Source: a virus. From it: DNA of 31,129 nt. The notes below the pieces were generated by a model. That model did no database searches and was not told where the DNA came from. It saw only the letters and a program-made list of their open reading frames with translations. This document shows, in pieces, positions 2,538 to 31,083 of the stretch (within the stretch, counting starts at the first letter, position 1; each line of letters begins with the position of its first letter). The position numbers and the translations under genes are program-made. The stretch covers positions 1 to 31,129 of IMG/VR virus record IMGVR_UViG_3300042892_001799; one strand, given 5' to 3'.

Positions 2538-3254
2538 TCACATATTTAGCAAGTAATACTGTTCAACCTTTTTCCACCACAGGTCACGATATTTTTCAAA
2601 TTCCTGCCCCTCCAGCACAAATTCCTGATATTCTGGCTGGGTGATCATGTTCATTTGTTCATCCAGCTGGGGTTTGACACACATCAAAACTACGCCTTTT
2701 TTGATTCGTGTTCCATGCAGTTCATTGTGTGCTTCAGCATAGGCACACAACTGCACAAAATAATCATCAATCCATTCGCGTTTTTTGGGCTTGTTGGTTT
2801 GCTTGTAATCTAATATGGCTTCTTCATTTAAATGTATGCCTGCACCATCAGTTGTTCCTGCGTACACTTTGGGAAAATACAGCGGAACCTCAATGCCCCA
2901 AAATTCACTCACATTCTTCAAACCGTATTCCACAACCTTGTGTGCCATAGCATGACTGGCCCATGAGAACGGATTCGTACCACGATCTTTGATCACGCCT
3001 TCTTTGACATATTGTTCAAGATAGGTATGCATACGGGTGCCACGGTTGGCTGCTTCTGTGGTAATGGCCTGTGCCGCTTCTGTACCCACTCTGGCTCGCC
3101 AGTTCTGCAAAGCCCGTTTGCTTTCCTCACTTTTGGTTTTGTCAAGTATGGTTGTGACACTGGGTAACTTGTTTCCGTCAGGTGTGGCATAGTAGCGTTT
3201 GCCTTCAATTGTGACACGTGGTACTGGTTGGTAATCAAATCTGGGATTTAACAA
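2538..3254 (-). CDS. PD-(D/E)XK family exonuclease (MGME1/RecB-like)
   Basis: The protein has the layout of the PD-(D/E)XK nucleases found in T4-like marine phages: PRVTIEGKRYYATPDG, then KLPSVTTILDKTK, a helical GTRMHTYLEQYV segment, a GTTDGAG acidic site, the core AILDYKQTNKPKK (D-x-K) and a following DDYFVQLCAYAEAH helix. These are the metal-binding and QxxxY-type elements of Cas4/RecB/MGME1-like 5' or single-strand exonucleases, so a role in DNA processing or recombination is likely. I chose the TTG at 3254, one base after the iscA stop, because the protein then begins directly with MLNPRFDYQPVPRVT. In-frame ATGs at 3299 and 3344 would overlap iscA by 44-89 bases and lack a Shine-Dalgarno. 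It is the last probable gene of the isc/radical SAM transcript before the tailspike. Confidence 0.8.
   Translation of the reverse strand: MLNPRFDYQPVPRVTIEGKRYYATPDGNKLPSVTTILDKTKSEESKRALQNWRARVGTEAAQAITTEAANRGTRMHTYLEQYVKEGVIKDRGTNPFSWASHAMAHKVVEYGLKNVSEFWGIEVPLYFPKVYAGTTDGAGIHLNEEAILDYKQTNKPKKREWIDDYFVQLCAYAEAHNELHGTRIKKGVVLMCVKPQLDEQMNMITQPEYQEFVLEGQEFEKYRDLWWKKVEQYYLLNM
2543..2550 (-). promoter_or_regulatory. Putative late promoter (GCTAAATA) for the tailspike gene
   Basis: GCTAAATA on the minus strand, inside the last codons of the exonuclease gene and about 25 bases before the GTG of the tailspike. It resembles the T4 gp55-dependent late element TATAAATA with two changes. The same octamer occurs at 8790-8797 in front of another late-region gene. 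Such a motif can occur by chance, so the call is moderate. Confidence 0.4.
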
Positions 3255-3255
3255 A

Positions 3256-3579
3256 TTAAACTCTAAAACTTTCTCCGCAACCGCAGCGGTCACGTTCATT
3301 GGGATTGGTAAATTCAAAGCCTTCATTGAGGCCTTGGCGTACATAGTCTACTTGTGTGCCACGCAGGTATACATCATGTTTTTTGTCAACTAACACACAG
3401 AAATCATTTTGAGCATAATTTATGTTGCCAGCGTCAGGTTCGTATTCTTTAACATATTCTAACACATAAGCAAGCCCTGAGCAACCGGTAGTTTTAACCC
3501 CCAGACGTATGCCAGCATAGCCCTTGGTTTGAACCAATTTTTGGATTTTGTTTCGTGCTTGATCAGTTATGGTTATCAT
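3256..3579 (-). CDS. iscA: A-type Fe-S cluster carrier, IscA
   Basis: A full-length 107-residue A-type carrier. The three cluster-binding cysteines are present: Cys33 in TTGCSGLAYVLEY, and Cys99 and Cys101 in the C-terminal RCGCGESFRV. Other IscA landmarks are IRLGVKTTGCSG, LRGTQVDYVRQGLNEGFEF and TNPN. E. coli IscA, as I recall it, is the same length with the same C-terminal CGCGESF. These proteins accept [2Fe-2S] units, and with partners help form and deliver [4Fe-4S] clusters to apo-proteins such as radical SAM enzymes. The gene starts 11 bases after rsam-2 and is the fourth gene of the iscU operon. An AGTAAATA motif (3585-3592) lies just upstream and may give extra late transcription. ErpA or SufA are alternatives, but the overall pattern is closest to IscA. 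Confidence 0.93.
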   Translation of the reverse strand: MITITDQARNKIQKLVQTKGYAGIRLGVKTTGCSGLAYVLEYVKEYEPDAGNINYAQNDFCVLVDKKHDVYLRGTQVDYVRQGLNEGFEFTNPNERDRCGCGESFRV

Positions 3580-3590
3580 AATAGTATTTA

Positions 3591-5309
3591 CTAGTCAATC
3601 TCGTTGCATAGCTCGTTGGCAATTTGTTTGAAGTCGCTTTTTACAGTCAATTGAAAAAGTTTTTTTGATACGTCTCTAGGCAATACCTTTAACACCTGTA
3701 AAATAAAACGGTCATCAACTGTTAACGACCCACCAAATGACATAGGCTCACAAGATTTTAGTATAGGGTTTCCTAAAAAATCCTGAGTAAAATAAAATTT
3801 TTGTTCGTTGATCCAGTTGGTATAGAGGTTGTTGCATAGTATACTGTATCCGCTGCTGTTTAACAAATTATCAATAATTGGTTCAATGTCTATGTGCATT
3901 CCAGTGTGTCGTATCGTAATAAATTTTATCACACTTAGAGCATTATAGAACCCAGACAACACTGTCATTTTTGCCAAATCTTGCTGATCAAACGAAATAC
4001 ATTTTTTGGGAATTTCGCTTACATAAAAATCAAAATTTGGATTAATCCTTGTGGATTTTACGTATTCAAATTGAAATTTGCGTTGATACTCAGGATCATA
4101 CACCGCAGGACTGGCTGGCAATGGTTCATTTAAAAATACAATGGGTAGTATATTTTTTTGAGTTATTTGTCGCAGAGTTTCCCGCCAGGTCAACGGCGTT
4201 TGTCCAGGTAATCCATAAATTAATTGTGCTTTCACAATCAACTGCGGATGTCGTGTGGTCAGTTCATCTGCCATGGCTGCATGAGTTTCCCAGCCCACAT
4301 CGGGCCGATCAATGTTTTTCAATATTTCCTCATTGGTGTCTTGTATAGAAAAGTTCAGCGTCTTTTGCACTAGACCACTTTCGGCCATGATGTTGAAAAT
4401 TTTCAAGTTGACGTCTTTGCGTAGTTTGCTGTAGTTGCCACTGATTTTAAATCCAGCATTGTGTTGCAGATTTTTTTGTGCAAAGTATTCAATCATGTCA
4501 ACATCTTCGTCATACTGTCCAACATTGGCATCTGACAGATAAATTTGTCTGATTCCCAGTTCATAAAATAGATCAATTTCTTCCCGGTAGGTATTCTTGC
4601 GTCGAGATATCTTGTTTCCTAATCCGCTGTTCCAATCACAAAATGTACAAGAATACGGACATCCCCTGGTCAATGTGTATGGCAAATACAGTGTTCCGTT
4701 ACGGTCTAAAATTGTGCGGGTCATCTCAGCAAACAATTCTCGATTGTGTGTAAAAGGACTGGTACTGATCATTTTTACAAATTTATAATCTGCTACAATA
4801 GGCAAATCAGTATGGTGATTTACCCAGCCACAGTTGGATGTGTTGAATGCAATCAGTGGAGTTTCAGTAACTAGACTTTTAATAATGTCTGCAAATGCCT
4901 GTTCTCCTGCACCGTACACTGCATAGTCAATGTAAGGGTGCTTGATAAAAAAGTCAGGGTCAAGATTGACATTGATGCTGGGACCACCTGCAATGACTTT
5001 GACATGGGCAGGCAACTGTGATCTAATTTGAACCAGTTGATTTATCAAGTATTCGTGATTCCAGATATAATGACTGGTGCAAAGAACGTTTGGTTGATAT
5101 TGATCAATGTATATCAACAATTCATCATTGGTCATTGTTTGTTGAACAGGCACTAGCCATTCTAGTTGCTTGGCAATTTCTGGATATGTTATATCAACAT
5201 AGGTTTTTAGATGCAACACAGCCGGATATAACCAAGACTTTGTTCCACCAGCGTGATACAGCAATATTTTTAACTTTTTATTATTTACAGATATCATAGT
5301 GGTATTCAT
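3591..5309 (-). CDS. B12-binding-domain radical SAM enzyme, paralogue 2
   Basis: A 572-residue enzyme with an N-terminal Rossmann-like cobalamin-binding type domain (residues about 12-150, with VLCTSHYIWNHEYL, VIAGGPS and YAVYGAGEQAF) and a radical SAM core opening with TRGCPYSCTFCDWNSGLG. The CxxxCxxC binds the [4Fe-4S] cluster that cleaves S-adenosylmethionine. Later landmarks shared with the upstream copy are LSDANVGQYDEDVDM, NFSIQDTNEEILKNIDRPDV, IYGLPGQT and EPLPASPAVYDPEY, then a helical C-terminal region. The classic B12 DxHxxG motif is absent, which is common in this class, so cobalamin binding is probable but not shown. Substrate unknown. The start is ATG 5309, overlapping the previous stop as TGATG; a TTG at 5312 is a less likely start. 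This is the second copy of a tandem duplication between iscU and iscA. Confidence 0.88.
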   Translation of the reverse strand: MNTTMISVNNKKLKILLYHAGGTKSWLYPAVLHLKTYVDITYPEIAKQLEWLVPVQQTMTNDELLIYIDQYQPNVLCTSHYIWNHEYLINQLVQIRSQLPAHVKVIAGGPSINVNLDPDFFIKHPYIDYAVYGAGEQAFADIIKSLVTETPLIAFNTSNCGWVNHHTDLPIVADYKFVKMISTSPFTHNRELFAEMTRTILDRNGTLYLPYTLTRGCPYSCTFCDWNSGLGNKISRRKNTYREEIDLFYELGIRQIYLSDANVGQYDEDVDMIEYFAQKNLQHNAGFKISGNYSKLRKDVNLKIFNIMAESGLVQKTLNFSIQDTNEEILKNIDRPDVGWETHAAMADELTTRHPQLIVKAQLIYGLPGQTPLTWRETLRQITQKNILPIVFLNEPLPASPAVYDPEYQRKFQFEYVKSTRINPNFDFYVSEIPKKCISFDQQDLAKMTVLSGFYNALSVIKFITIRHTGMHIDIEPIIDNLLNSSGYSILCNNLYTNWINEQKFYFTQDFLGNPILKSCEPMSFGGSLTVDDRFILQVLKVLPRDVSKKLFQLTVKSDFKQIANELCNEID

Positions 5310-7033
5310 CAAGCCAATTCAGCATATAGTTTCATAACGTAATGAAATAAGATTTTTTCTCTGGCCAAATGAGATAACTGTTCTTTTTGATCATCTGGTA
5401 ACAAGTTTTGAACTTGCAAAAGAAATTTCTCGTGGTTAATCAACTCTACACCATGGTACCCAACTTCACAAGAATAATTTGCAACATTTCCTGAAAAATC
5501 TTGAGTGAGATAAAAAATTTGTTCGTTGGACCAATTTTTATAAAGATTGTCACATAAAATACGATATCCTTCGCTGAGCAACAAATTATCAATTATAAAT
5601 TCAGTGTCTATTCGCGATCCAACATGTTGTATCATGGTTAAATTTATTAGACTAATTGCCTCGCATATCCCTGATAATATAAACATTTCTACTAGATCAT
5701 GTTGGCTAAATGAAACACACTTTTTAGGAATTATACCTACATAATAATTTTGTTGAAAATCTTTACGTACAGCCTTGTCGTATTCAAATTCCCATTTCTT
5801 TTGGTATTCTGGATCATACATGGCAGGACTGGCTGGCAATGGTTCATTTACAAACCAAATTGGTAACATATTTTTTGCAAGAATTTGTTGCATGGTCTGT
5901 CGCCACGATTCAACTGTTTGTCCAGGCAATCCACAAATCAACTGAGTTTTGACAATCAAGTGAGGATATTTCCCTCGCAATTCGTCAGCCATGGCTACAT
6001 GTGTCTCCCACCCCACATCCGGACGATCAATGTTTTTTAATACTTGTTCATTGATGTCCTGTATGGAGAAGTTCAAAGTCTTTTGCACAAGACCACTTTC
6101 GGCCATAATGCTAAACATTTTCAAATTGTTTTTTTTGTTTAACTTGCTATAATTTCCTGATATACGAAAACCTGCATTTTCTTGCAGATTTTTTTGAGCA
6201 AAGTATTCGACCATGTCAACATCTTCATCATATTGTCCAACATTGGCGTCAGACAAATAAATGTTTTTAACTCCTAATTTGTGGAACAAATCAATTTCTT
6301 GTTGATAGGTGTTTTTGCGCCGAGACACTTTGTTTCCAAGTCCGCTGTTCCAATCACAGAATGTACATGCATACGGGCAACCTCTTGTGAGAGTGTACGG
6401 GACCCACTCAGCTACGTTAGTCACATTTTTTTTCTTGGCATTTGCAACCATACGCCCAAATAGTTCTGCATTGTGTACAAAAGGACTGGTCTCTAACATC
6501 TTTACAAACTTGTAATTGGCCACATTTGTTTTTCCAGTTTGATTGTTTTTCCAGGCACAGTTGGATGTGTTGAATGCAATCATGGGCGTTTCTAATACCA
6601 AATGACTGACAATGTCTGCAAATGCCTGTTCGCCTGCACCGTACACTGCATAGTCAATGTAGGGGTGTTGATCAAAAAAATATTTGTTGTTGTTGACATC
6701 AATGCTGGGACCACCTGCAATTACTGCTTGAATATGCAGTTTAGGCTTGATACGAGCTAACTGATTGATTAAAAAATCATGGTTCCAAAGATAATGACTG
6801 GTGCATAAAATATCAACATTGTTTTGTTTAATATGTTGTAGTAACTCATCGTCAGTCATTGCATCTTGTATAGGCAACAACCATTCTAATTTTTCTGCTA
6901 GTTCTGGATACAGCGTATCAATATATGTTTTAAACACCAAAACATTAACTTTGATCCAACCTTGCATTCCAGTTTGATAAAATAATATCCTAGTTTTTTT
7001 TTGTGAAAAAAAACTGCTTGGGCTACGCGACAT
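5309..7033 (-). CDS. B12-binding-domain radical SAM enzyme, paralogue 1
   Basis: A 574-residue protein closely similar along its whole length to the downstream copy. A cobalamin-binding-like domain spans about residues 14-150 (ILCTSHYLWNHDFL, VIAGGPSIDV, YAVYGAGEQAF). The radical SAM core starts at TRGCPYACTFCDWNSGLG with Cys219, Cys223 and Cys226, followed by YLSDANVGQYDEDVDMVEYF, FSIQDINEQVLKNIDRPDVG and ICGLPGQTVESW. The two copies differ mainly at the N-terminus, in an insert near residues 198-210, and in the C-terminal third. Enzymes of this architecture methylate or rearrange unactivated carbons in lipids, peptides or antibiotics; the phage substrate cannot be inferred. The gene begins six bases after the iscU stop, which strongly suggests co-expression with the cluster scaffold. 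Confidence 0.88.
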   Translation of the reverse strand: MSRSPSSFFSQKKTRILFYQTGMQGWIKVNVLVFKTYIDTLYPELAEKLEWLLPIQDAMTDDELLQHIKQNNVDILCTSHYLWNHDFLINQLARIKPKLHIQAVIAGGPSIDVNNNKYFFDQHPYIDYAVYGAGEQAFADIVSHLVLETPMIAFNTSNCAWKNNQTGKTNVANYKFVKMLETSPFVHNAELFGRMVANAKKKNVTNVAEWVPYTLTRGCPYACTFCDWNSGLGNKVSRRKNTYQQEIDLFHKLGVKNIYLSDANVGQYDEDVDMVEYFAQKNLQENAGFRISGNYSKLNKKNNLKMFSIMAESGLVQKTLNFSIQDINEQVLKNIDRPDVGWETHVAMADELRGKYPHLIVKTQLICGLPGQTVESWRQTMQQILAKNMLPIWFVNEPLPASPAMYDPEYQKKWEFEYDKAVRKDFQQNYYVGIIPKKCVSFSQHDLVEMFILSGICEAISLINLTMIQHVGSRIDTEFIIDNLLLSEGYRILCDNLYKNWSNEQIFYLTQDFSGNVANYSCEVGYHGVELINHEKFLLQVQNLLPDDQKEQLSHLAREKILFHYVMKLYAELA

Positions 7034-7039
7034 GTTGTG

Positions 7040-7411
7040 TTAATGTTTTTTCTTGTAATCTTCTACAGCAGCCTTTATAGCATCTTCAGCAAGAATAGAA
7101 CAATGAATCTTGACTGGTGGCAATGCGAGTTCTTGAGCAATCTCTGAATTTTTAAGAGCTGCGGCCTCGTCAAGCGTTCGTCCTTTAACCCACTCGGTAA
7201 CAAGAGAGGATGAGGCAATCGCACTTCCGCATCCGTACGTTTTGAATCTGGCATCTGTTATAATTCCGTTTTCAACTTTGATTTGCAGTTTCATCACATC
7301 ACCGCAAGCAGGTGCACCTACCATGCCTGTACCAACAGTGTCGTCAATTTCAAACTTGCCCACATTGCGTGGATTTTCATAATGATCAATTACTTTTTCT
7401 GAATAAGCCAT
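7040..7411 (-). CDS. iscU: Fe-S cluster assembly scaffold IscU
   Basis: A complete 123-residue IscU. It starts MAYSEKVIDHYENPRNVG and keeps every functional residue: Cys36 and Asp38 in GAPACGDVMK, Cys61 in YGCGSAIASSS, and His103-Cys104 in KIHCSILAEDAIKAA. It also has the LPPVK loop (97-101) that the chaperone HscA recognises, so it looks able to use a host Isc machine. Long runs are the same as beta/gammaproteobacterial IscU as I remember it, which points to acquisition from such a host. The role is to assemble [2Fe-2S]/[4Fe-4S] clusters with sulfur from IscS and hand them on. No iscS, hscA, hscB or fdx is present here. It is first in its operon, with GAAGGA before the ATG and a consensus sigma70 promoter just upstream. 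Confidence 0.96.
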   Translation of the reverse strand: MAYSEKVIDHYENPRNVGKFEIDDTVGTGMVGAPACGDVMKLQIKVENGIITDARFKTYGCGSAIASSSLVTEWVKGRTLDEAAALKNSEIAQELALPPVKIHCSILAEDAIKAAVEDYKKKH

Positions 7412-7428
7412 GTGATATTCCTTCGCTG

Positions 7429-7457
7429 ATTATAGCGTATTTACTGATAAATGTCAA
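7429..7457 (-). promoter_or_regulatory. Perfect-consensus sigma70 promoter of the iscU operon
   Basis: On the minus strand TTGACA (7457-7452) and TATAAT (7434-7429) are separated by exactly 17 bases, all twelve bases at consensus. The start point would fall about 10 bases before the iscU ATG region, followed by GAAGGA. The spacer also holds AGTAAATA (7438-7445), a late-type motif. Such strength suggests immediate early transcription by host polymerase. Confidence 0.9.
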
Positions 7458-13547: not shown

Positions 13548-15221
13548 ATGACTAGTCAGATCAATCCCAACGATATAAACGGTGATTACCCCGTGGCAGG
13601 TGTCAGTAACAACACGCAGGGCATGCGTGACAATTTTACTAACATCAAGACAAATTTTCAATATGCAGAGGACGAAATAAATGATCTGCAGTCAAAAGGT
13701 GTGTTCAAAGCAGCATTAACTGGCACCACTTTGGACAACAACATGGCCAACAACGTGATCTACAATGCACAAGTACGCGGCATAGCAGGCACTGTTGTAA
13801 CCATTGCAGCCACTTCGGGCACTGTGAACATAGACTGCAATGCTGGTCCTTATCAAACCATATCAATAACTGGCAACATTACTCTAGCATTTAACAGCGC
13901 AACTTGGCCACCTTCGGGCACATTTGGCATGATACGATTGCGAGTCACTGTAGATGCCGCAGGACGTACCATGACCTTGCCTGCCAGTGTGTCGCAGGGC
14001 ACAAATACCATACAAGGACTGTTATCTAATGTGTTGACGTTTGCCGCTGCTGGCACATTTGAATTTGGATTTAGCACAATCAATGCTGGTGCTACCATTG
14101 CCATGTATGATTTTGTTAGACCGTTAGATTATTACACTGACACAGTGACCATTGCAAACACTGCTGTCAGCACCAATGCAGGCACAGGTGCGCTGATTGT
14201 GGCTGGTGGTGTGGGTGTTAGTGGCAATCTATATGTGACCGGCGATATTGTGGGCAACATTGTGGTCATTGGTTCTACATTTGTTGGCAACGTTACCGCT
14301 GGCAACTTGCTTACTGGTGGACTGGTCAGTGCCACGGGCAATGTCACCGGCAGTAATTTACGCACAGGCGGATTGGTATCTGCAACTGGTAACGTCACTG
14401 GTGGTAACTTGCTTTCTACCACACTAAGTTTGAGTGGTAATATACTCAGTGCTATCAATACCACGGCCAATATCACAACCACAGCCAATATTTCTGTGGG
14501 CAATGTGTTGATCAACGGCATTACTAACAGCACAGGCAACGTCACTGGTGGTAACTTACGCACCACTGGGCAGATGTCGGCTTCAGGTAACGTCACTGGA
14601 GGCAATGTCAGCACAGCAGGGTTGATCACTGCTGTAGGTAACGTCACTGGAGGCAATCTCAATACTGGTGCTCAAGTGATAGCCACTGGCAACATCACTG
14701 GTGGCAATGTGATTTCAGTGGCTCTTGTGGAAGGAGCAATAGTAAGTGCTACAGGAAACGTCATTGGTGGCAATGTCAGCAGTGGTGCTCAAATAGTAGC
14801 CACAGGCAACATCACTGGTGGTAACGTACTCACTGCAGGTCTTGTAAGTGTCACAGGCAACATCACAGGCGGTAATGTGCTGGGCGGTGCCAACGTCAAT
14901 GCCACCCTGTTTACAGGCACTACCATATCAGTTGCAGCCAACATTTCTGGTGGTAATATATTGAGCGGTGCTGTGGTATCTGCTGTGGGCAACGCTAGAA
15001 TACTTTCTGGTACCGCTGTACCAGCAGGTGGTACAGCAGGTGCAGGTTACAGAATGTCCAGCACCACCAACTTTGGTATATTCTTTGGGTCAGGTGCACC
15101 TACCTTGAGTGCTGCCCAAGGATCGTTGTACATGCGTACAGACGGTAGTGCTACCAGTGACAGGATGTATGTCAACACTGACGGTGCCACTGCCTGGACT
15201 CCTGTGATCACAGCGTCTTAA
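13548..15221 (+). CDS. Repetitive tail-fibre-like structural protein, 557 aa
   Basis: The N-terminus (MTSQINPNDINGDYPVAGVS, then NNTQGMRDNFTNIKTNF) resembles attachment domains of fibre or tail proteins. Residues about 70-190 form a Gly/Thr/Ala beta-rich domain. Residues about 225-485 are built from roughly a dozen 17-residue units of the type GNVTGGNLLTGGLVSAT, suggesting a repeated beta-solenoid shaft. The C-terminus (FFGSGAPTLSAAQGSLYMRT, then DRMYVNTDGATAWTPV) looks like a compact trimerisation or tip module often found at the end of phage fibres. Charged residues are rare throughout. It is on the plus strand with AAGGA before the ATG and a late-type promoter. Its stop overlaps that of the convergent radical SAM gene by four bases, with no terminator between. 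Confidence 0.8.
   Translation: MTSQINPNDINGDYPVAGVSNNTQGMRDNFTNIKTNFQYAEDEINDLQSKGVFKAALTGTTLDNNMANNVIYNAQVRGIAGTVVTIAATSGTVNIDCNAGPYQTISITGNITLAFNSATWPPSGTFGMIRLRVTVDAAGRTMTLPASVSQGTNTIQGLLSNVLTFAAAGTFEFGFSTINAGATIAMYDFVRPLDYYTDTVTIANTAVSTNAGTGALIVAGGVGVSGNLYVTGDIVGNIVVIGSTFVGNVTAGNLLTGGLVSATGNVTGSNLRTGGLVSATGNVTGGNLLSTTLSLSGNILSAINTTANITTTANISVGNVLINGITNSTGNVTGGNLRTTGQMSASGNVTGGNVSTAGLITAVGNVTGGNLNTGAQVIATGNITGGNVISVALVEGAIVSATGNVIGGNVSSGAQIVATGNITGGNVLTAGLVSVTGNITGGNVLGGANVNATLFTGTTISVAANISGGNILSGAVVSAVGNARILSGTAVPAGGTAGAGYRMSSTTNFGIFFGSGAPTLSAAQGSLYMRTDGSATSDRMYVNTDGATAWTPVITAS
14286..14960 (+). repeat. 51-bp coding repeat array (17-residue GNVTGGN units)
   Basis: Degenerate 51-base units with a core such as ggcaacgtcactggtggtaac, seen near 14337, 14389, 14537, 14588, 14637, 14688, 14754, 14806, 14857 and 14938. 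Adjacent cores are usually 51 bases apart, with a few longer insertions. Each encodes G-N-V/I-T-G-G-N plus a variable 10-residue stretch. The array can recombine to lengthen or shorten the shaft. Confidence 0.85.
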
Positions 15222-16357
15222 TCTAACAACTCAGCCCACTCAGGGCATACAGATCTAAAACTGTTGCCTCTAATAGAATCAATTTGGTTGATTTTTTCCC
15301 AGAAAAAACTATTACTTTCTGCACTTGTTGTTAAAGAATTAACCAATTCTATTAATCGTGGGCGATTGCTAAACTTGTTTAGCAAAACCTCTTTAGTTGG
15401 CTTAGACACATGATTAATACTAAAATCACCTATTACTTTTTGATATATTAAATTTACAGTATCGCCGTATCGATTTTTTGTTAAATTATTTTGATACCAG
15501 TCTTCAATTTCGTCAAGGTAATATAAATTTAAATATCCCCATGCACAATTTATGTTGAACATGTGATTGTGTGGCATGTTGTTCACAAACCATTTGATAT
15601 TTTGAATTACTTGATTCCAATTTGCGCCTGTGCGTTGGTAATTGAAGCGATCGCCAATATCATCAATACTAAAATATAATTCTACCAGTTTACATTCTTC
15701 CCACAAATCAAGAACTGACTGAGATACGGTTTGTGTGCCATTGGTATTGTAAAATACTCTAACATCACTGAGTCCTTTTGCTTCTTTTATACTTTTTAAC
15801 ATTGTTACATGATTGTTAGACATCAATGGTTCACCACCACCGTGAAAATGTATATTTTTTACATTCATCAACAATGCAAGATCAAGTGTTTCAATTTGAT
15901 TGTGCTTGTCGTATTTGAATTTGTTTATGTCTGTTAGAGGATATTTTTTTTGATAATCAGGCAGCCACGAAGAACTATTCTCTGGACCGCAAATTAAACA
16001 TTTTAAATTGCATAAATTTCCCACGCTGTAATCAATACTTTGTGGACTGGTTAGATCTATATTTGTATCTTGGTGAAAATCCTCATACAGTTGTTTAGAT
16101 GACTTCCAACGACTTGCAAGACCGTGTGATTCTTCACGATAACATTGATGACATCCAGGTATTGGTTGATCATTTTCTATTAACAATTTTAACTGATTAT
16201 GTTCTGGGCTATGCCAGGCTTTAGATAAATCAAAATCAGTGGTAATTTTTATAACTCCGTCATAATATGAGCAGGGACTATATCCAATTTGCCCATTTAA
16301 AGACCTTATTGCAAGATTTTTATATATTTCATAACAAAAATATTTTTTATCTTTCAT
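15218..16357 (-). CDS. Radical SAM protein with twitch/SPASM-like extra cysteines, 379 aa
   Basis: A radical SAM core is marked by GNLCNLKCLICGPENSSSW (Cys116, Cys120, Cys123), followed by NIHFHGGGEPLMSNNH, matching the GGGEP motif, and by FYNTNGT and YFSIDDIGDRFNYQR. Upstream lie additional cysteines (Cys29 in SPCSYYDG, and Cys69 and Cys72 in PGCHQCYREE), and the C-terminus has SVCPEW. This arrangement corresponds to the twitch-domain radical SAM proteins common in T4-like marine phages. The substrate is unknown; peptide or nucleotide-sugar modification has been proposed for relatives. It has no cobalamin domain and is not a paralogue of the two enzymes near 3.6-7.0 kb. It lies between the fibre gene and an SDR-like gene, with a GAGAAATAGAG-type weak ribosome site. 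Confidence 0.85.
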   Translation of the reverse strand: MKDKKYFCYEIYKNLAIRSLNGQIGYSPCSYYDGVIKITTDFDLSKAWHSPEHNQLKLLIENDQPIPGCHQCYREESHGLASRWKSSKQLYEDFHQDTNIDLTSPQSIDYSVGNLCNLKCLICGPENSSSWLPDYQKKYPLTDINKFKYDKHNQIETLDLALLMNVKNIHFHGGGEPLMSNNHVTMLKSIKEAKGLSDVRVFYNTNGTQTVSQSVLDLWEECKLVELYFSIDDIGDRFNYQRTGANWNQVIQNIKWFVNNMPHNHMFNINCAWGYLNLYYLDEIEDWYQNNLTKNRYGDTVNLIYQKVIGDFSINHVSKPTKEVLLNKFSNRPRLIELVNSLTTSAESNSFFWEKINQIDSIRGNSFRSVCPEWAELLD

Positions 16358-19330: not shown

Positions 19331-20410
19331 TTAACGATAAAAGATATTGGTAACGTAGCCAGTTGTGATCAGCACAGTAACCGCTTGATCCTCAGTGCCA
19401 CCAAAATTCAATGGCAAATAGCCCGAACCACCATTGGTCACAGTGATTGCACCAATTCCGCTGGGACCTGTGAATGGTGCACCAACAGCAGTTGCGCCGG
19501 CACCATTGCCCAAGATTTGAACACAAGGTGCTGCCATGTATCCCATGCCAGCATTGTTTACAGCAATACCAGTGACCACACCATCAACCACTGTGGCAGT
19601 TGCCGACGCACCGTACCCTTGACTGTTGTTAATACCCAGTCGCAACAACGGGTGGAAACCCACCACATTGATGTAAAAGGTACCAGACTCGTCAAAGTAT
19701 TCGCGGCTTTCAGTAACGTCTACCCATACGGCTTCGTAATCCTGTGCGGCTTGTACTTTGACTGTGCCAGTATAATGCACAAGATCATACTTGATTGTGG
19801 TCAAACTAGCACCAGTGGTATTGATATGACTTGAATAATATTCAGTAAGATAGTTATTAGATCGAGGTTGTGGATTCAATGCCCAATCTGGCCATGATTG
19901 TGGTCCAGGTTGTGGCCACGAATTTTTGCCATTTATCGTGGGAATTGTCACTGGTTGGCTGGCCATGAACTCGGGCAATACACTGTCTACAATATCGCAA
20001 TCTGCTCTGGCACCAGCATTGTCGTCTGTGAATGCTGCCTGTACATAGTTGCCCTGTGTGCGTTCAATGCTGTAACTGCCAGGTTGTGCTACTATGTTGA
20101 TGGTGTCTGCTGTGTCCAGCACAACTTTGACTCGTCCCAACGTGGCACTAAGTACAGTCATGTCTTTTTCAATTAGCAATTCGTCGCCAGTTTGGTTCAG
20201 TAATCTAAAGCGGAATGTGCTGCCTGTGATATTCACAGGTTTTTGGTCTTGGTTGATGAATTCAAACAACAAAACGTTGTCTACACCTTTGTTGACGGTT
20301 AAAGTTTTTGCGTACACTGGGTCGTACCTCGCAGTAAAGTATCCACCACTGGTGTCAATCAATAATACCCGAATGATTTGTTGATATAAGTAAATGGTGG
20401 TTGAATACAT
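19331..20410 (-). CDS. Virion structural protein, BppU-like N-terminal and GxGY repeats, 359 aa
   Basis: The N-terminal 110 residues (KTLTVNKGVDNVLLFEFINQ, then KPVNITGSTFRFRLLNQTGD) resemble the beta-sandwich BppU_N-type domain of baseplate upper proteins. A middle Pro/Trp-rich linker (WPQPGPQSWPDWALNPQPRS) leads to a second beta-rich part with two units of the kind AVNNAGMGYMAAP and TVTNGGSGYLPLN, a repeat common in marine phage structural proteins. No enzyme motif. A baseplate or fibre-attachment role is likely but not proven. TGAGGA lies just before the ATG and CATAAATA, a late-type promoter, 16 bases upstream. It lies between replication genes, so it is probably a separate late unit reading toward the primase. 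Confidence 0.75.
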   Translation of the reverse strand: MYSTTIYLYQQIIRVLLIDTSGGYFTARYDPVYAKTLTVNKGVDNVLLFEFINQDQKPVNITGSTFRFRLLNQTGDELLIEKDMTVLSATLGRVKVVLDTADTINIVAQPGSYSIERTQGNYVQAAFTDDNAGARADCDIVDSVLPEFMASQPVTIPTINGKNSWPQPGPQSWPDWALNPQPRSNNYLTEYYSSHINTTGASLTTIKYDLVHYTGTVKVQAAQDYEAVWVDVTESREYFDESGTFYINVVGFHPLLRLGINNSQGYGASATATVVDGVVTGIAVNNAGMGYMAAPCVQILGNGAGATAVGAPFTGPSGIGAITVTNGGSGYLPLNFGGTEDQAVTVLITTGYVTNIFYR

Positions 20411-23793: not shown

Positions 23794-24693
23794 TCAATAA
23801 GTCAACCGCCAGTTGCGTATCTGAGGATCATAACGAAACACAATATCGTTTGTGGCTCCCATGATGTGTTTGGCGACGTTACCAAACCAAACATCTCTGC
23901 AATTCATTGTCACTGGGCCATATTCAGCTTGCCAAAACAACACCACATACATGCTTTGTCGAAATCGTCTAATGTCATTGAAAGGAATTGTAACAGTGAG
24001 ATCTGAATCATTGTTTAGTTGATTCAAGTCAACTGTGATTGGTTGAGTTTGGTGATATTTTGTCAGTTTCAGATCAGTGAACTCTGGCAGCATTTTAAAA
24101 AATCTATTGAGTTGATTGGCTTGGTAACGTGTGTCCGCAAGGCTGTACTGTTGCTGAAAATCTTGATTGATAATGCTGGCAAATGCAGGATCAACATCAA
24201 TGTCAGGCTGATATTCAAATGCTTCTGACCCCGATTGATCGACCACAAATATTGGGTGCATTTGATACACTTCTGCGTGAATTTTAAATTGACCAGGTAT
24301 AAACTCTCCACCGTGTCGCTGTGCATGGTTGGATAATTTTATTATATCTTCACCAAATATTTGTGTGTTGATAGTTTCTGACACATACACATCTGCCTTG
24401 ATGTCAAGGTTGAGAAAGTCCCCATGTATCAATTCAATGCGATCAGTCATCTGCAATTTTTCAATGATTGATTTGGTATATTGATACCTTTGCAAATCTC
24501 TTTCAACTGCAATCACATGTTTTGCTCCAGCATGCACTGCCAGCACACTTAAGAAACCTGTGCCGGTGCCGATGTCACAAATTACTTTTCCTGGTGCAGC
24601 TAACTCTAATGCAGTTTTGTAAAAAATATTACGTCCAGTATCATTCAACATGGGCATGAAGACCCCGTCGTCTTTCATAAAATCTAAGCTCAT
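23794..24693 (-). CDS. Protein-arginine-methyltransferase-like class I SAM methyltransferase, 299 aa
   Basis: A class I methyltransferase. MPMLNDTGRNIFYKTAL resembles the MLKDxxRTxxY pre-motif of PRMTs. Motif I is VICDIGTGTGFLSVLAVHAG (residues 37-56), the adenosine-binding acidic residue is Glu64 in VIAVE, and the motif after strand 4 is VYVSETINTQIFGED. The last has two glutamates, 106 and 115, nine residues apart, as in the PRMT double-E loop that holds the arginine guanidinium. A C-terminal beta region contains VVLFWQAEYGPVTM, loosely like the THW-loop area. PRMTs methylate arginine in proteins; a phage target is unknown. Alternatives are a ribosomal-protein or small-molecule methyltransferase. 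It overlaps the SGNH hydrolase gene by four bases. Confidence 0.72.
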   Translation of the reverse strand: MSLDFMKDDGVFMPMLNDTGRNIFYKTALELAAPGKVICDIGTGTGFLSVLAVHAGAKHVIAVERDLQRYQYTKSIIEKLQMTDRIELIHGDFLNLDIKADVYVSETINTQIFGEDIIKLSNHAQRHGGEFIPGQFKIHAEVYQMHPIFVVDQSGSEAFEYQPDIDVDPAFASIINQDFQQQYSLADTRYQANQLNRFFKMLPEFTDLKLTKYHQTQPITVDLNQLNNDSDLTVTIPFNDIRRFRQSMYVVLFWQAEYGPVTMNCRDVWFGNVAKHIMGATNDIVFRYDPQIRNWRLTY

Positions 24694-25412
24694 TGTTTTA
24701 TTTCTAAAATAATTTGATTTATTCTTTGTGCCATTAGTACCTGAGTTTCTGTGTCAGTATGATATGGATCATTTTCTGGCTTTCCTGTTTTGTAGTAGTT
24801 GAACATAGGTTCAGCAAAATTTGTGTCAGTGAGCTCAATTGGAGTTATTCCAGCATTGAGTATTTTTTGGTGCCAGTGTTGAAACATCCACGAATCAACT
24901 TCATCTTGTAGTCCTTCGTGAAACAAATGCTTCAGATATGCATCTATGGCTTGCAATTGATCTTTTGATATATTCACTGTGGAATTTTTATCAAGTCCTT
25001 GCCACACTGTGGAAAAAATTCCTGCGTTGTTGTCTGGTGTTCCAACGCCTCGATCTGTAACTATTTTACTATTGTGACCAACATATTTACAATAAGTGCT
25101 TTCGTCTCCAGAAAATGGGTATATAAAATTTTTTAATCCATTCTCAACATTAAATGTCTGATTAACTATTAAATTTATTCTACCAGACCATGTTTTATGA
25201 TATGTCACGTAACGGCATCCAATACTAATTGCCTCCCTTATTTGAAAACAAATACCCAGGTTACTCATACTACCACGAGCTAGATTTAATACTTTATAGC
25301 CAAATTGATCTTGTAAAATTTGACTGTAATGATCTCGTTCTCCAGTCTTGGGATTACCATTTTTTGGGGCACAACTAAAACTATCGCCACATACTATAAT
25401 ATCGTATTTCAT
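24690..25412 (-). CDS. SGNH/GDSL-type hydrolase-like protein, 240 aa
   Basis: From ATG 25412 the protein opens MKYDIIVCGDSFSCAPKNG, with the block I GDSFS (residues 9-13) of SGNH hydrolases. The block V pair DPYH (Asp215, His218) lies near the C-terminus, and LNLARGSMSNLGICFQI may supply the block II glycine and GN-type positions. The family removes acyl groups from lipids, sugars or peptidoglycan-linked substrates. The target here is unknown; a cell-surface or glycan ester is a reasonable guess given the glycosyltransferases nearby. No signal peptide is visible, so it would act in the cytoplasm or virion. The start overlaps the uvsW stop as ATGA. The upstream in-frame codons would enter uvsW and lack support. 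Confidence 0.72.
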   Translation of the reverse strand: MKYDIIVCGDSFSCAPKNGNPKTGERDHYSQILQDQFGYKVLNLARGSMSNLGICFQIREAISIGCRYVTYHKTWSGRINLIVNQTFNVENGLKNFIYPFSGDESTYCKYVGHNSKIVTDRGVGTPDNNAGIFSTVWQGLDKNSTVNISKDQLQAIDAYLKHLFHEGLQDEVDSWMFQHWHQKILNAGITPIELTDTNFAEPMFNYYKTGKPENDPYHTDTETQVLMAQRINQIILEIKQ

Positions 25413-26878
25413 AATATCTTCATCCAATCAAGTTTTTCTTGTGTAAAGGGATAGTTGGCTTCCTTGTAGAATTGTTTACGTTTGGTCAAGTGACGCTTGG
25501 CAAATTTACATGTGGAAGTTATGTCCCAGATTTGAACATGGTCTTTGTCTTCTGCTTTGCGTATTCCACGACCGATGCTTTGGATAACACGTACAAAACT
25601 TTTGCCAGGCTCCACCAATACAAGATTAAAAATACGGGGAATATTGATGCCCACAGCAGCCACGCCATAGGTTGCCACAATAATTTTATCTGTTGCTTCA
25701 GCCACTTCGTCATATTCTGCCTGCCTCTTTGATCCCTTGGTTGCACCCGACACAAACACTGCTTTGTCACCCAACCTTGCAACCAGTTGTCTACCACACT
25801 CAGTACGGTCTACCAGCACTAGAGTGTTGCCTGTTTCGTTTACTTGACGCACCAAGTCTGCCATGGTGTCCAGTCTTCCAGACTCTTCCAGCAAGTATTT
25901 GAGCTCGCTTTGATAGTCCTTGTACTCCACGTGATCAATCAACTGCACAATGTTCACATGGCAGTTGGCCAACACACCTTGTTGTTGCAGTTCACTGGCA
26001 CTGAGCTTGCCAATAACAGGGCCAAGACTGACCAGCAGTGCTTGGCTTTCAAACTTTTCTTTGGGCACAGTTCCAGTCAAACCCCAGCGAATTGGCACTC
26101 TAGCCATTACGCCTGTTAACAAGGTTTTGAGTGCATCTGCCTTGGCCATGTGTACTTCGTCCACAATCACGCACACCACATCTTCAAGAAACTCACCTAT
26201 GGTACAGTCGCCTACTCCAGCCTTGGTATTCTTCAACAAGTTGTTTAGACTCTGCCAAGTGCATATTGTGTGTGTGCGTCCGTATTCTTTTCTGTCGCCA
26301 AAGTACACGCCAACATCTTGTTGCATGTTGATGTAGTCTGCTTCAGTTTGTGTTACTAAACTCTTGTTGGGCACAATAACAATACTGCGTCCATAAGGTG
26401 CCACAGCATTGCTCAAGGCTGCTGTCATAATGGTTTTGCCTGCACCTGTGGCCACTTCTTGTATGCACTGTGGGTTGGCCAAGAAGTTGTTGATGATTTC
26501 CACTTGGTAGTCACGCAACATGATAGGCTCACCTGCGGCCGGGTGTGTCTTAGGCCACTTCACATGTTCAAAACTTGTTTCAGTTACTGATTCAAAGTTA
26601 AATGTGTTCGAATAGTCACGCTGGTCATCCAGTTCAACATCATAGTCAAACTTTTCCAATATGGGCATGATCTCTGGCAACAGGTTCACATAGGTGCTGC
26701 CACCTAGTTGGAAGTATGCTACCTTGCCATCCCATCGTCCTAAACGAACTGCTGGCAAATAACGTGCGGCAGGGTTTTCATATTTGAAAGCATTGACCAA
26801 GGCCTTGCGAGCATCCAAGTCCAGTCCTTCAATCTTGATGTTTACTTCGTCACGTATTTGTATTGTGCATCTTTTCAT
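25409..26878 (-). CDS. uvsW: UvsW-type DNA/RNA helicase
   Basis: Starting at ATG 26878 the protein has 489 residues. The N-terminal region RLGRWDGKVAYFQLGG resembles the UvsW domain that precedes the helicase core. Core motifs are LRDYQVEIINNF, Walker A ATGAGKT (143-149), VDEVH (Walker B, 239-243), GLTGTVPK (motif III-like), VATYGVAAVGINIPR (motif V) and VIQSIGRGIRK (motif VI). T4 UvsW is an SF2 helicase that resolves branched DNA and R-loops and helps switch origin use to recombination-dependent replication. Early/late timing here may differ because a sigma70-type promoter sits directly before the ATG. It is followed by an SGNH hydrolase gene and a methyltransferase gene in one operon. Confidence 0.92.
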   Translation of the reverse strand: MKRCTIQIRDEVNIKIEGLDLDARKALVNAFKYENPAARYLPAVRLGRWDGKVAYFQLGGSTYVNLLPEIMPILEKFDYDVELDDQRDYSNTFNFESVTETSFEHVKWPKTHPAAGEPIMLRDYQVEIINNFLANPQCIQEVATGAGKTIMTAALSNAVAPYGRSIVIVPNKSLVTQTEADYINMQQDVGVYFGDRKEYGRTHTICTWQSLNNLLKNTKAGVGDCTIGEFLEDVVCVIVDEVHMAKADALKTLLTGVMARVPIRWGLTGTVPKEKFESQALLVSLGPVIGKLSASELQQQGVLANCHVNIVQLIDHVEYKDYQSELKYLLEESGRLDTMADLVRQVNETGNTLVLVDRTECGRQLVARLGDKAVFVSGATKGSKRQAEYDEVAEATDKIIVATYGVAAVGINIPRIFNLVLVEPGKSFVRVIQSIGRGIRKAEDKDHVQIWDITSTCKFAKRHLTKRKQFYKEANYPFTQEKLDWMKIL

Positions 26879-28635: not shown

Positions 28636-28709
28636 GGCTCCTTTTTGCTTTGTATGCCATTATTATAGCAAAAAGGGTATTTCTGGTCAAGTACTACCAA
28701 AGTATTACT
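28636..28709 (-). repeat. Promoter-module direct repeat, copy 2
   Basis: Second copy of the 74-base module, differing from copy 1 only within the 17-base spacer of the promoter. It supplies the promoter and ribosome site of the 69-residue gene, and its far edge overlaps the stop region of the glycosyltransferase gene (tandem TAG TAA). Confidence 0.9.
28662..28690 (-). promoter_or_regulatory. sigma70 promoter of the 69-residue protein gene
   Basis: TTGACC (28690-28685), 17 bases, TATAAT (28667-28662) on the minus strand. Same boxes and spacing as the two neighbouring promoters. Confidence 0.9.
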
Positions 28710-29451
28710 ATTGCCAATGCCCTGCTATAATAGGATCCGCAGTACATTCATGCGGCTTGGGACGTCCGTGGAACACCAATATGCTGGTGTTGTCACCAAT
28801 GTGTGCGCCTGAACCAGGTTTCTTGGGTCGTCTGCTGGCAAAGTCATAGCCTCCATCGGCCACTTGCCAGCGCCAACTTTTTACATGATGTGGTTCAAAA
28901 TATCTACGTTGTGTCGGATCAATCACTACACCTAAGTAGTCCTGGTCACCAGGATACTGTATCACAACTTTGTTGATATCTAACTTGTTAAATGCTTCCC
29001 ATACATGCGCATACTGGGCCACGTTCCACCACATCACGCTGGAGTTCATGCCTGAATAACTTTGACGTTGCAGATATCTAAAGTCTCTTATGGTCCAAAA
29101 ACATTCTGTGCTTAATACTGGTATCCATTCTAAGTCGCTGATAATTACACAGTCGAGATCAAAATAAAGTAAGTTACCCGAATGATGTTCAGGGTTGAAC
29201 AACTGCATTTTGTACCACCACTCACGTTTAGGTCCTCCAATACCTGGCCACTCTTTTAATGCATGTTTGATCATGTGTGACGGCACGGGCCTGTCTGCTT
29301 CGGTATACACATGAAAACGTATGCCTTGTGGCAAGTTGCGTTTTAACATGTTGTAAAGTTTTTCTACGTATACCCATTCATAGCCAGTGCCATGGATCAC
29401 ACAGGCACAGTCAGTTATGCCGTCAGGGCGGGCTCGATTCTTTTTAGCCAT
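28708..29451 (-). CDS. Glycosyltransferase-like protein with DxD motif, 247 aa
   Basis: 247 residues. VYTEADRPVPSHMIKHALKE and KREWWYKMQLFNPEHHSGNL precede the metal-binding DxD, LLYFDLDCVIISDL (Asp98, Asp100), as in GT-A glycosyltransferases (family 8-like) that use nucleotide sugars. Later blocks are GMNSSVMWWNVAQ, YPGDQDYLG and ILVFHGRPKPHE, typical of this group in phages. It would transfer sugar to DNA, virion proteins or the host surface; the acceptor is unknown. A good GAGAAGGACT ribosome site precedes the ATG, and the gene overlaps the next one upstream by 37 bases. Confidence 0.83.
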   Translation of the reverse strand: MAKKNRARPDGITDCACVIHGTGYEWVYVEKLYNMLKRNLPQGIRFHVYTEADRPVPSHMIKHALKEWPGIGGPKREWWYKMQLFNPEHHSGNLLYFDLDCVIISDLEWIPVLSTECFWTIRDFRYLQRQSYSGMNSSVMWWNVAQYAHVWEAFNKLDINKVVIQYPGDQDYLGVVIDPTQRRYFEPHHVKSWRWQVADGGYDFASRRPKKPGSGAHIGDNTSILVFHGRPKPHECTADPIIAGHWQ

Positions 29452-30266
29452 AGTCCTTCTCTTAGTTCTTCAACAGTGTATTCAGTGTGGCATATCTTGG
29501 CCAGCCACAGTTCTCTATCTATCGTGTAAGGTTGTTCAATGTCAGGCATGCCCACTGCCACAGGATATGCCAAACTGCTGTGTGCCACAATGGGTCTGCA
29601 ACCTGCAATGCCTGCTTGTATGCCTGGTCCTGAATTGTGATTTACCACAGCATGACAGTTGAAGTGCATGTCAAAACTGTCGTAGGTGTTGGCCACGGGT
29701 CTAGCAATTTCCATCATGGTATTTTCTGGCATGTATGGCATACGTAGTGGGCTTCGTGGATGTGCTCGTATGCGTATGGGGCGGTCAGTTGAGTTGCGTA
29801 ACAGTTGAACTTGCATCAACACCCAGGATTCCATGCTGCCTATGCCAGCAACTTGCAGGCTGTTCTTGTGCTGTGCGGCAATGATGATTTCTGGTCCAGG
29901 ATTGACTTGTGTGGCCAAACTTATTTGCAGTTTTCTAGGACGACCCAGATCCAAATCGTGCTCATGTCCGTAATAGCCATCCCTGGTGATGTGATTTACT
30001 GCCAGTTTCCAAGTTTGCCCGCGATACAACGCACCAATGTCTATCACAATCACTGGTTTGTTCTGACTGCGATAGTGTTCGTATACCCCTTGATTGGGTC
30101 GCATTCTGCCATGCCACAGCACTGACCAAATCACCGCGGCATCAGCAGTCATTGAGTTCTCTTGTGTTTGTATGCCTGCGGCTTGGCAGCAGTCCAGGAA
30201 TGCACTCATTACAGGCCGGCTGTTCAATGCACATTGGGCAGGAAAATAGGCTATGCTTTTGATCAC
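29415..30266 (-). CDS. GT-B/KpsS-like polysaccharide-related protein, 283 aa
   Basis: From GTG 30266 the protein has 283 residues. Recognisable parts are VIWSVLWHGRMRPNQGVYEH, VIVIDIGALYRGQTWKLAVN and, near the C-terminus, HFNCHAVVNHNSGPGIQAGI followed by AGCRPIVAHSSLAYPVAV. The last resembles the donor-binding half of GT-B enzymes and of capsule Kdo-transferase (KpsC/KpsS-like) proteins. Function is therefore probably in carbohydrate synthesis or modification, but the substrate is unknown. A longer start would run into the divergent plus-strand glycosyltransferase gene. An internal ATG (30209) is possible. There is no clear ribosome site at the GTG. Confidence 0.68.
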   Translation of the reverse strand: MIKSIAYFPAQCALNSRPVMSAFLDCCQAAGIQTQENSMTADAAVIWSVLWHGRMRPNQGVYEHYRSQNKPVIVIDIGALYRGQTWKLAVNHITRDGYYGHEHDLDLGRPRKLQISLATQVNPGPEIIIAAQHKNSLQVAGIGSMESWVLMQVQLLRNSTDRPIRIRAHPRSPLRMPYMPENTMMEIARPVANTYDSFDMHFNCHAVVNHNSGPGIQAGIAGCRPIVAHSSLAYPVAVGMPDIEQPYTIDRELWLAKICHTEYTVEELREGLWLKRIEPALTA

Positions 30267-30279
30267 TGTAAATACGCTT

Positions 30280-31083
30280 ATGAAATACACTGTAGTTACC
30301 ACTTTTAACGCCGAAGGTTACAACTCTTATGGTCGGCGAATGATTCAAACGTTTTTGCAAACCTGGCCCAAAGATGTGCTACTCAAAGTGTATGCTGAAA
30401 ATTGTCGTGTAACTGAGACTGCACCAAATTTACAAGTGTTAAATTTAGAAGAGTCAAGTCCTGAGTTGGTTGCATTTAAAAAAACCTGGTGCAATGTGCC
30501 CAAGGCCAATGGTGATGTTACCGCAGATCCTGTTAGATCAAAAAGAAAAGACGCAGGCAAAGGATTCAAATGGCATGCTGTGAGATTTGCTCACAAGGTA
30601 TATGCTATATTTCATGCTACTCAGCATGCCACAACAGATTGGGTAATTTGGATGGATGCTGATATGGTTTGCCATTCTCCCGTGAGTATGGAAAAACTAT
30701 CACAGTTCTTTCCTACTTCTGCAGATCTTTGTTTTGCTGGGCGCAGTAAAAAATTTACCGAATGTGGACTGTATGGCATGCACGTAACTGAGCCAGCAGT
30801 GCAATCCTGGCTAGCAGAGTTTCAACACATGTATGATGATGCCGAGCAAGGTATATTCACCCTGGATGAATGGCACGACAGTTTTGTGTTTGATGCTGTG
30901 AGAAAACGTCATAGTTTACGCGAACAAAATTGGACCGCACATTTACAAATGGGCGAAGGACACCCTCTGATTAATTCTGAGTGGGGTGCATACATTGATC
31001 ACCTCAAAGGCGAAAGAAAAGGACTAGGCCGAAGTCGATCATCAGATTTAAAAGTACGCAGGAATGAAAGTTACTGGAGATGA
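30280..31083 (+). CDS. Glycosyltransferase-like protein with DxD motif, 267 aa (plus strand)
   Basis: From ATG 30280 the protein reads MKYTVVTTFNAEGYNSYGRR then MIQTFLQTWPKDVLLKVYAE, a GT-A-like N-terminal fold. KGFKWHAVRFAHKVYAI is followed by TTDWVIWMDADMVCHSPVSM with the DxD at Asp126/Asp128, then ADLCFAGRSKKFTECGLYGM and QGIFTLDEWHDSFVFDAV. These match phage-encoded glycosyltransferases. It is divergent from the neighbouring carbohydrate gene with only 13 bases between their starts. A TGTAAATA late-type motif lies six bases before the ATG, with no obvious ribosome site. Its stop overlaps the next gene's start (ATGA). Confidence 0.82.
   Translation: MKYTVVTTFNAEGYNSYGRRMIQTFLQTWPKDVLLKVYAENCRVTETAPNLQVLNLEESSPELVAFKKTWCNVPKANGDVTADPVRSKRKDAGKGFKWHAVRFAHKVYAIFHATQHATTDWVIWMDADMVCHSPVSMEKLSQFFPTSADLCFAGRSKKFTECGLYGMHVTEPAVQSWLAEFQHMYDDAEQGIFTLDEWHDSFVFDAVRKRHSLREQNWTAHLQMGEGHPLINSEWGAYIDHLKGERKGLGRSRSSDLKVRRNESYWR

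Follow-up and report, generated by a model that had tools for sequence, protein, structure and literature searches.

Radical SAM genes between iscU and iscA in T4-like phages: a candidate iron–sulfur supply operon with a cassette slot

The stretch of virus DNA analysed here, positions 1–31,129 of IMG/VR record IMGVR_UViG_3300042892_001799 (31,129 nucleotides; the window), carries on its reverse strand four closely packed genes. These are iscU, encoding an iron–sulfur (Fe–S) scaffold (7040–7411), two genes for cobalamin (B12)-type radical S-adenosylmethionine (rSAM) enzymes, rSAM1 (5309–7033) and rSAM2 (3591–5312), and iscA, encoding an A-type Fe–S carrier (3256–3579). From iscU to iscA, the spacing is 6 bases, then an overlap of 1 base, then 11 bases; the overlap assumes that rSAM2 starts at the ATG at 5309, which is likely, the listed open reading frame (ORF) beginning one codon earlier with TTG. 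The interval between iscU and iscA (3580–7039, reverse strand) is treated below as a cassette slot, S2, which in the window holds the two rSAM genes. A sigma70-like promoter, TTGACA-N17-TATAAT, lies upstream at 7429–7457 on the same strand, with no mismatch. An earlier note on this DNA had described this gene order on one strand, these junctions, the perfect promoter and the phage context; the coordinates agree with the first three, and the phage context is supported. The promoter is kept upstream of iscU in many relatives. Within at most 100 nucleotides (nt) of iscU it is perfect in 60 of 136 relatives, some of them near-identical to the window, with one mismatch in 16, two in 7 and none found in 53; the corresponding background counts in 5000 windows of 100 nt drawn at random from these loci are 19, 19, 83 and 4879.

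The scaffold scores 211.5 bits against the IscU equivalog model TIGR01999 (cut-off 192.4). The carrier scores 101.9 bits against the subfamily model TIGR00049, above the cut-off of 58.8, and 119.5 bits against the IscA equivalog TIGR02011, below the cut-off of 150.6, and is therefore filed as an A-type, IscA-like carrier. Y3, C36, D38, C61, the PPVK stretch at 98–101 and C104 of IscU are invariant in all 135 full-length relatives, and His103 is seen in the window sequence; the conserved cysteines and aspartate of IscU are cluster ligands. C33, C99 and C101 of IscA are kept in 130 of 130 relatives, and the key residues previously named for both proteins are present in the window. Seven comparisons with the window gave nonsynonymous divergence (dN) of 0.007–0.036 and synonymous divergence (dS) of 0.21–0.43 for iscU; for iscA the values are 0.04–0.08 and 0.47–0.83.

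Other Fe–S functions were sought in 43 phage records, most of them picked for carrying iscU. NifU_N is present in 42. An IscS-type aminotransferase (PF00266) was found in none of the 43 records, most of which are fragments, with control genomes positive in 14 of 14 cases, in agreement with the earlier statement that the phage lacks iscS. Glutaredoxin is encoded in 17 of 18 records, and a second A-type carrier match occurs in 4 of 16 (G004 at 96469, G016 at 73428 and 74135, G020 at 78534 and G021 at 158681); in G016, iscU is flanked by two A-type carriers. Glutaredoxin-like ORFs, possibly a further Fe–S carrier, also lie upstream of iscU at L040:1363–1686, L046:5703–5999, L168:4449–4844 and L169:4237–4575. 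That of L040 has a CGFS motif, which we take to mark the monothiol type.

Relatives of the operon were collected by three scans of viral contigs, with rSAM1 (22 loci), IscU (best 80 of 588 matches) and IscA (best 80 of 179). Pooling gave 148 distinct contigs, of which 132 have both isc genes; the 16 lacking one or both were left out of the junction counts, and 23 locus identifiers (20 repeat contigs plus L001, L024 and L025) had been removed beforehand. The two genes adjoin in 70 of the 132, with an overlap in 69 of these 70 that amounts to 17 bases in 56. An insert separates them in 58, that is, in 58 of the 128 junctions of forward order, and in four (L075, L081, L099 and L101) the order is reversed, iscA lying just upstream of iscU. 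An rSAM gene is present in 53 of the 58 filled junctions, or 50 of 55 without the three contigs found by the rSAM scan alone, and 49 junctions hold the B12 family of the window. L049, L072, L093 and L146 have only rSAM types from outside that family, and the slots of L061, L063, L097, L167 and L168 are filled without any rSAM. The neighbouring slots contain rSAM genes in 4 of 26 filled cases upstream and 8 of 40 downstream, an excess for the iscU–iscA slot of Fisher 2e-17 among contigs that are not independent. In L061 an ORF inside the slot (6393–7160) resembles, by eye, an HNH-type homing endonuclease.

A search for a conserved iscU–rSAM–iscA order among viral contigs, as proposed in the earlier note, thus found no such conservation, given the adjoining and reversed junctions. 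A fixed four-gene unit was rejected for the same reason: many junctions are empty, and close sisters can differ in state, L110 for example being filled and L139 empty. The earlier note also held that an rSAM pair without isc genes nearby, together with co-occurrence no more frequent than by chance, would count against the link. Loci with a B12-rSAM relative and no isc gene within the flanks examined exist, 6 of the 22 from the rSAM scan (L017–L021 and L023), and they speak against a scaffold and carrier reserved for the two bracketed enzymes. The B12-type enzymes of these six are 46–48% identical to those of the window, and the 128-kb contig of L021 encodes iscU and iscA elsewhere. Matches to IscU and IscA in phage collections include mislabelled bacterial DNA: CAKLQH020000011.1 (L025), named as an Acinetobacter phage, has a full bacterial isc operon, looks mislabelled and is used here only as a bacterial example.

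The slot turns over, and the linkage of its state to the surrounding genes is localised. A tree was built for 104 contigs (44 with B12-rSAM, 53 empty and 7 other) from three neighbour proteins encoded upstream, without contigs of reversed order or with fewer than 200 residues of these proteins. On this tree B12-rSAM presence changes 12 times, at least nine of the changes being forced by supported branches, and the seven non-B12 inserts require 7 changes; on the iscU and iscA trees B12-rSAM presence changes 9 and 3 times, respectively. Linkage was measured as the sharing of slot state between nearest neighbours among 41 representatives, near-copies of equal state having been dropped, with a chance level of 0.54. 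Concordance in iscA is 0.98 for codons 1–20, 0.93 for 11–30, 0.81 for 21–40, 0.69 for 31–50 and 0.56 for 41–60, and in iscU it is 0.73 for codons 101–120 (p = 0.0055) and 0.47–0.57 elsewhere. Linkage is thus strongest at the 5' end of iscA, with a weaker signal at the 3' end of iscU. This pattern suggests that the cassette is exchanged by recombination within the two isc genes, and we infer homologous exchange with breakpoints in both. Co-adaptation of the whole of IscA with the rSAM enzymes is not favoured, the strong association being found only in the first 40–50 codons of iscA.

The two enzymes in the slot of the window score 63.0 (rSAM1) and 54.7 (rSAM2) against Pfam Radical_SAM, both above the cut-off of 29.5, and 27.9 and 31.1 against Pfam B12-binding, just below the cut-off of 32.1; the CxxxCxxC motif is present in both. 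A profile of 23 phage members compared with solved structures matches TokK (7kdx) at 2e-38 and CysS (9n1b) at 7e-24. The AlphaFold2 model of rSAM1 (mean predicted local distance difference test, pLDDT, 86.3) has the fold of TokK (E 5e-30; template modelling, TM, score to query 0.75–0.76) and of CysS (E 5e-25; TM 0.69), followed by OxsB and TsrM, and its two nearest models in BFVD are proteins of uncultured phages. Trp83, invariant in 23 of 23 members, aligns with Trp76 of TokK, which is described in the part of the source consulted as sitting below the cobalt (PMC13331322). The fold match and the TokK alignment support a putative cobalamin domain at the N-terminus. The likeness to TokK and CysS thus covers profile, fold, CxxxCxxC and the aligned tryptophan under the cobalt; the window enzymes differ in being 15–18% identical to them and some 50–110 residues shorter. 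Scores against the KedN5 methylase model NF033712 are 100.6 and 96.4, below the cut-off of 700. By analogy, the likeliest chemistry of the family would be methylation of an unactivated carbon.

The rSAM cassettes are under purifying selection, with dN 0.06–0.27 and dS 0.7–2.0 in seven pairs. A scan of 84,980 species genomes with two short motifs gave 27 pattern matches and no bacterial relative, and a bacterial source of the enzymes was set aside on this result, although two short motifs could miss distant homologs. An origin of the pair by local duplication was also rejected. rSAM1 and rSAM2 fall in different subclades, as do the copies in L013 and L028, so that all three independent arrays in which both copies are full length show this split (window/L003/L004, L013 and L028; L013_a is a long branch in the tree, which does not include the incomplete pairs of L002 and L005). 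The pairs therefore appear to have arisen by stacking of cassettes.

Phages with iscU are rich in rSAM genes. Matches at E values up to 0.001 occur in 37 of the 43 records, above cut-off in 34. The six iscU records of at least 100 kb have 4, 10, 7, 9, 12 and 11 matches, the last being G041 (128 kb), which entered via the rSAM scan; the other five were found by IscU or IscA. These five contain 42 matches in 1.098 Mb, compared with 11 in 3.317 Mb for 12 phages without iscU, an 11.5-fold difference in density (Mann–Whitney by genome, p = 0.001). The difference is 14-fold if only matches above the family cut-off are counted (33 versus 7) and 13-fold if G041 is included. In the stretch of L089 that was covered, the neighbour genes of the window are not shared, save nrdA. 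The tie between Fe–S assembly genes and rSAM genes put forward in the earlier note is supported.

With moderate confidence, we read the locus as a phage Fe–S supply operon for many phage rSAM enzymes, in which the iscU–iscA junction serves as a cassette slot. A T4-like phage would keep the two-gene iscU–iscA module as its Fe–S supply and would borrow cysteine desulfurase, chaperones and ferredoxin from the host; we infer that the phage rSAM enzymes would receive [4Fe-4S] clusters during infection via the phage scaffold and carrier. Homologous exchange with breakpoints at the 5' end of iscA and near the 3' end of iscU would add or remove rSAM cassettes, which on insertion would come under the iscU promoter and probably be co-translated with the carriers. 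The slot of the window would then hold two stacked cassettes of a phage cobalamin-dependent family, most likely methylating unactivated carbon. Supply to many phage rSAM enzymes, and not to the bracketed two alone, is likeliest because the iscU contigs are rich in rSAM genes and the phages have glutaredoxin and second carriers. More tentatively, iscU and iscA may double as Fe–S supply and as recombination arms, an incoming [4Fe-4S] enzyme landing in its own cluster operon; if this is true, a single cassette swap would give a matured enzyme at once.

A number of observations weigh against the supply operon and its slot. Six of the 43 records are without rSAM, though at 37–75 kb these are perhaps fragments, and phage C48C1 has iscU, yet only one rSAM in 156 kb. 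The 12 controls were drawn from matches to two proteins of the window, with T4 and HTVC008M added, and are not a random sample, and only four of the five long iscU contigs (L097, L120, L124 and L041) share neighbour genes of the window. The contigs are kin, some near-identical, so that slot counts are not counts of independent events, and the many B12 cassettes all belong to one family; once that family is removed, only a weak rSAM excess remains in the slot (4 of 9 versus 11 of 65, p = 0.08). Slot rSAM genes were called by the CxxxCxxC motif or by likeness to those of the window rather than by family search. Resolution is weak in the short trees of iscU and iscA, where 2 and 1 changes are forced. 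Finally, the association with slot state returns at exonuclease 140–169, p336 1–30 and spike 1–30 (p 0.0005–0.0035) and, weakly, at p7468, iscA 71–90 and exonuclease 180–209. Simple decay does not predict this renewed association outside the 5' end of iscA.

Phage IscU and IscA could instead chiefly prop up host Fe–S proteins, the junction being merely a convenient site for recombination in phages where rSAM genes are plentiful anyway. This would fit the 70 contigs without an insert, the five filled slots without rSAM, the loss of significance of the rSAM excess when the B12 family is removed, and the A-type carrier matches of 34–39% identity in LR756504 and LR756511, records without an IscU match. 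It is nevertheless rather unlikely in view of an rSAM density 11–14 times higher on the long iscU contigs than in the 12 phages without iscU, and of the prevalence of rSAM genes in filled slots, the flanking slots also holding some. The strict form advanced in the earlier note, in which scaffold and carrier would serve only the maturation of the two B12-type enzymes, is not supported and is improbable. The nesting is conserved where it is present, and the iscA allele tracks B12-rSAM presence better than the neighbour proteins do (3 versus 12 changes), but the strong association is limited to the 5' end of iscA, as physical linkage predicts and co-adaptation of the whole carrier does not. Moreover, the junction is empty in 70 of 132 contigs, and other rSAM families and five inserts without rSAM use the slot. 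Among the best 80 of 588 matches in the IscU scan, the isc genes adjoin in 47 contigs and only 17 have a B12-rSAM at the junction; the corresponding figures for the best 80 of 179 in the IscA scan are 30 and 47. That the isc genes are passengers of host gene capture with no selected role deserves hardly any credence: IscU is 83–91% identical to the best 80 bacterial copies, but functional residues do not vary among 135 (IscU) and 130 (IscA) relatives, 83 of 136 have a promoter-like site with at most two mismatches, and dN far below dS in both genes is a sign of purifying selection that refutes the idea in the main.

Those 80 bacterial copies are the best of at least 589 matches and come, by title, mostly from Comamonadaceae, other Burkholderiales or betaproteobacteria. 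In an IscU tree of 66 rows (38 phage, 27 of the 80 bacterial matches and one Acinetobacter), 36 of the 38 phage proteins group together, next to sequences mainly from Comamonadaceae (support 90, not starred; the alignment has few columns); those of L015 and C48C1 fall outside it. Against the bacteria sampled in this tree, a single capture from near Comamonadaceae seems to have given rise to phage IscU, and the host may plausibly belong to the Burkholderiales. The closest match of the helicase is in PA5oct-like phages (47%), and cyanophages contain weak relatives of p10479, for which reasons the phage is called T4-like in a wide sense. It is of freshwater type and perhaps infects freshwater Burkholderiales.

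The earlier note took the promoter to imply strong early expression, unlike the flanking late genes; this is a prediction, and the run of genes continues past iscA with no real gap. The ORF of an exonuclease gene (2538–3254, reverse strand; phrog_298, 2.1e-54) overlaps the end of iscA, the gene itself probably starting with TTG at 3254; next come a spike-like gene, p336 and nrdA, separated by 19, 5 and 6 bases. A third rSAM gene, of the twitch-domain type (15218–16357, reverse strand; NF033640 218.3, cut-off 170), lies outside the operon. Elsewhere, L264, L265 and L266 are islands with 5–8 CxxxCxxC ORFs in 14.5–19.5 kb, amid uncharacterised partners. A span of about 500 bases in the window holds three TTGACC-N17-TATAAT sites (28690, 28408 and 28177, reverse strand), which may represent a phage promoter family. 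Glycosyltransferase-like and SGNH-hydrolase-like ORFs, judged by eye, at 28708–29451, 30253–31083 and 24690–25427 could fit surface or glycan modification by such phages. The tRNA-Tyr called by ARAGORN at 19499–19597 (reverse strand), within the ORF at 19331–20410, is probably a false call.

The bacterial isc operon, exemplified by L025 (IscS-IscU-IscA-HscB-HscA-Fdx), likewise has iscU followed by iscA, their products being 78% and 52% identical to those of the window. It differs in including IscS, for which no gene of the type was found in the 43 phage records, most of them fragments, and in lacking the rSAM genes that separate iscU from iscA in the window. Parallels are also found among marine T4-like viral genomes, for which the part of Nishimura et al. 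(2017, PMC5332604) consulted describes genes for an A-type carrier or IscU with up to 12 rSAM genes, glutaredoxin and other Fe–S genes in one phage, and proposes that the assembly proteins also act together with viral proteins. The same part of that paper reports no iscU–rSAM–iscA nesting, slot, recombination pattern or B12 class, and it places the marine IscU with gammaproteobacteria, whereas that of the window lies beside mainly Comamonadaceae. In pelagimyophages, rSAM genes similarly act as gain and loss cassettes in T4-like phages, within a host-recognition cluster, and the portion of the text consulted has no occurrence of IscU, Fe-S or iron-sulfur (PMC7029224). Viral rSAM or Fe–S genes, and not the iscU–rSAM–iscA arrangement, are mentioned in the consulted parts of PMC7678222 and PMC9301287. 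The suggestion that the arrangement might be undescribed holds to the extent that no paper on an iscU–rSAM–iscA slot was found in the open-access literature searched; the co-occurrence itself was published for T4-like phages in 2017. The co-occurrence is therefore already known, the arrangement is new, and the proposed mode of exchange, read from sequence patterns, would be new as well.

The finding offers a reason for phages to have Fe–S assembly genes without a sulfur donor. It also brings to light a phage family of cobalamin radical SAM enzymes with no bacterial relative in the motif-pattern scan. The natural pairs of filled and empty slots among close relatives make the proposal of 2017 testable.

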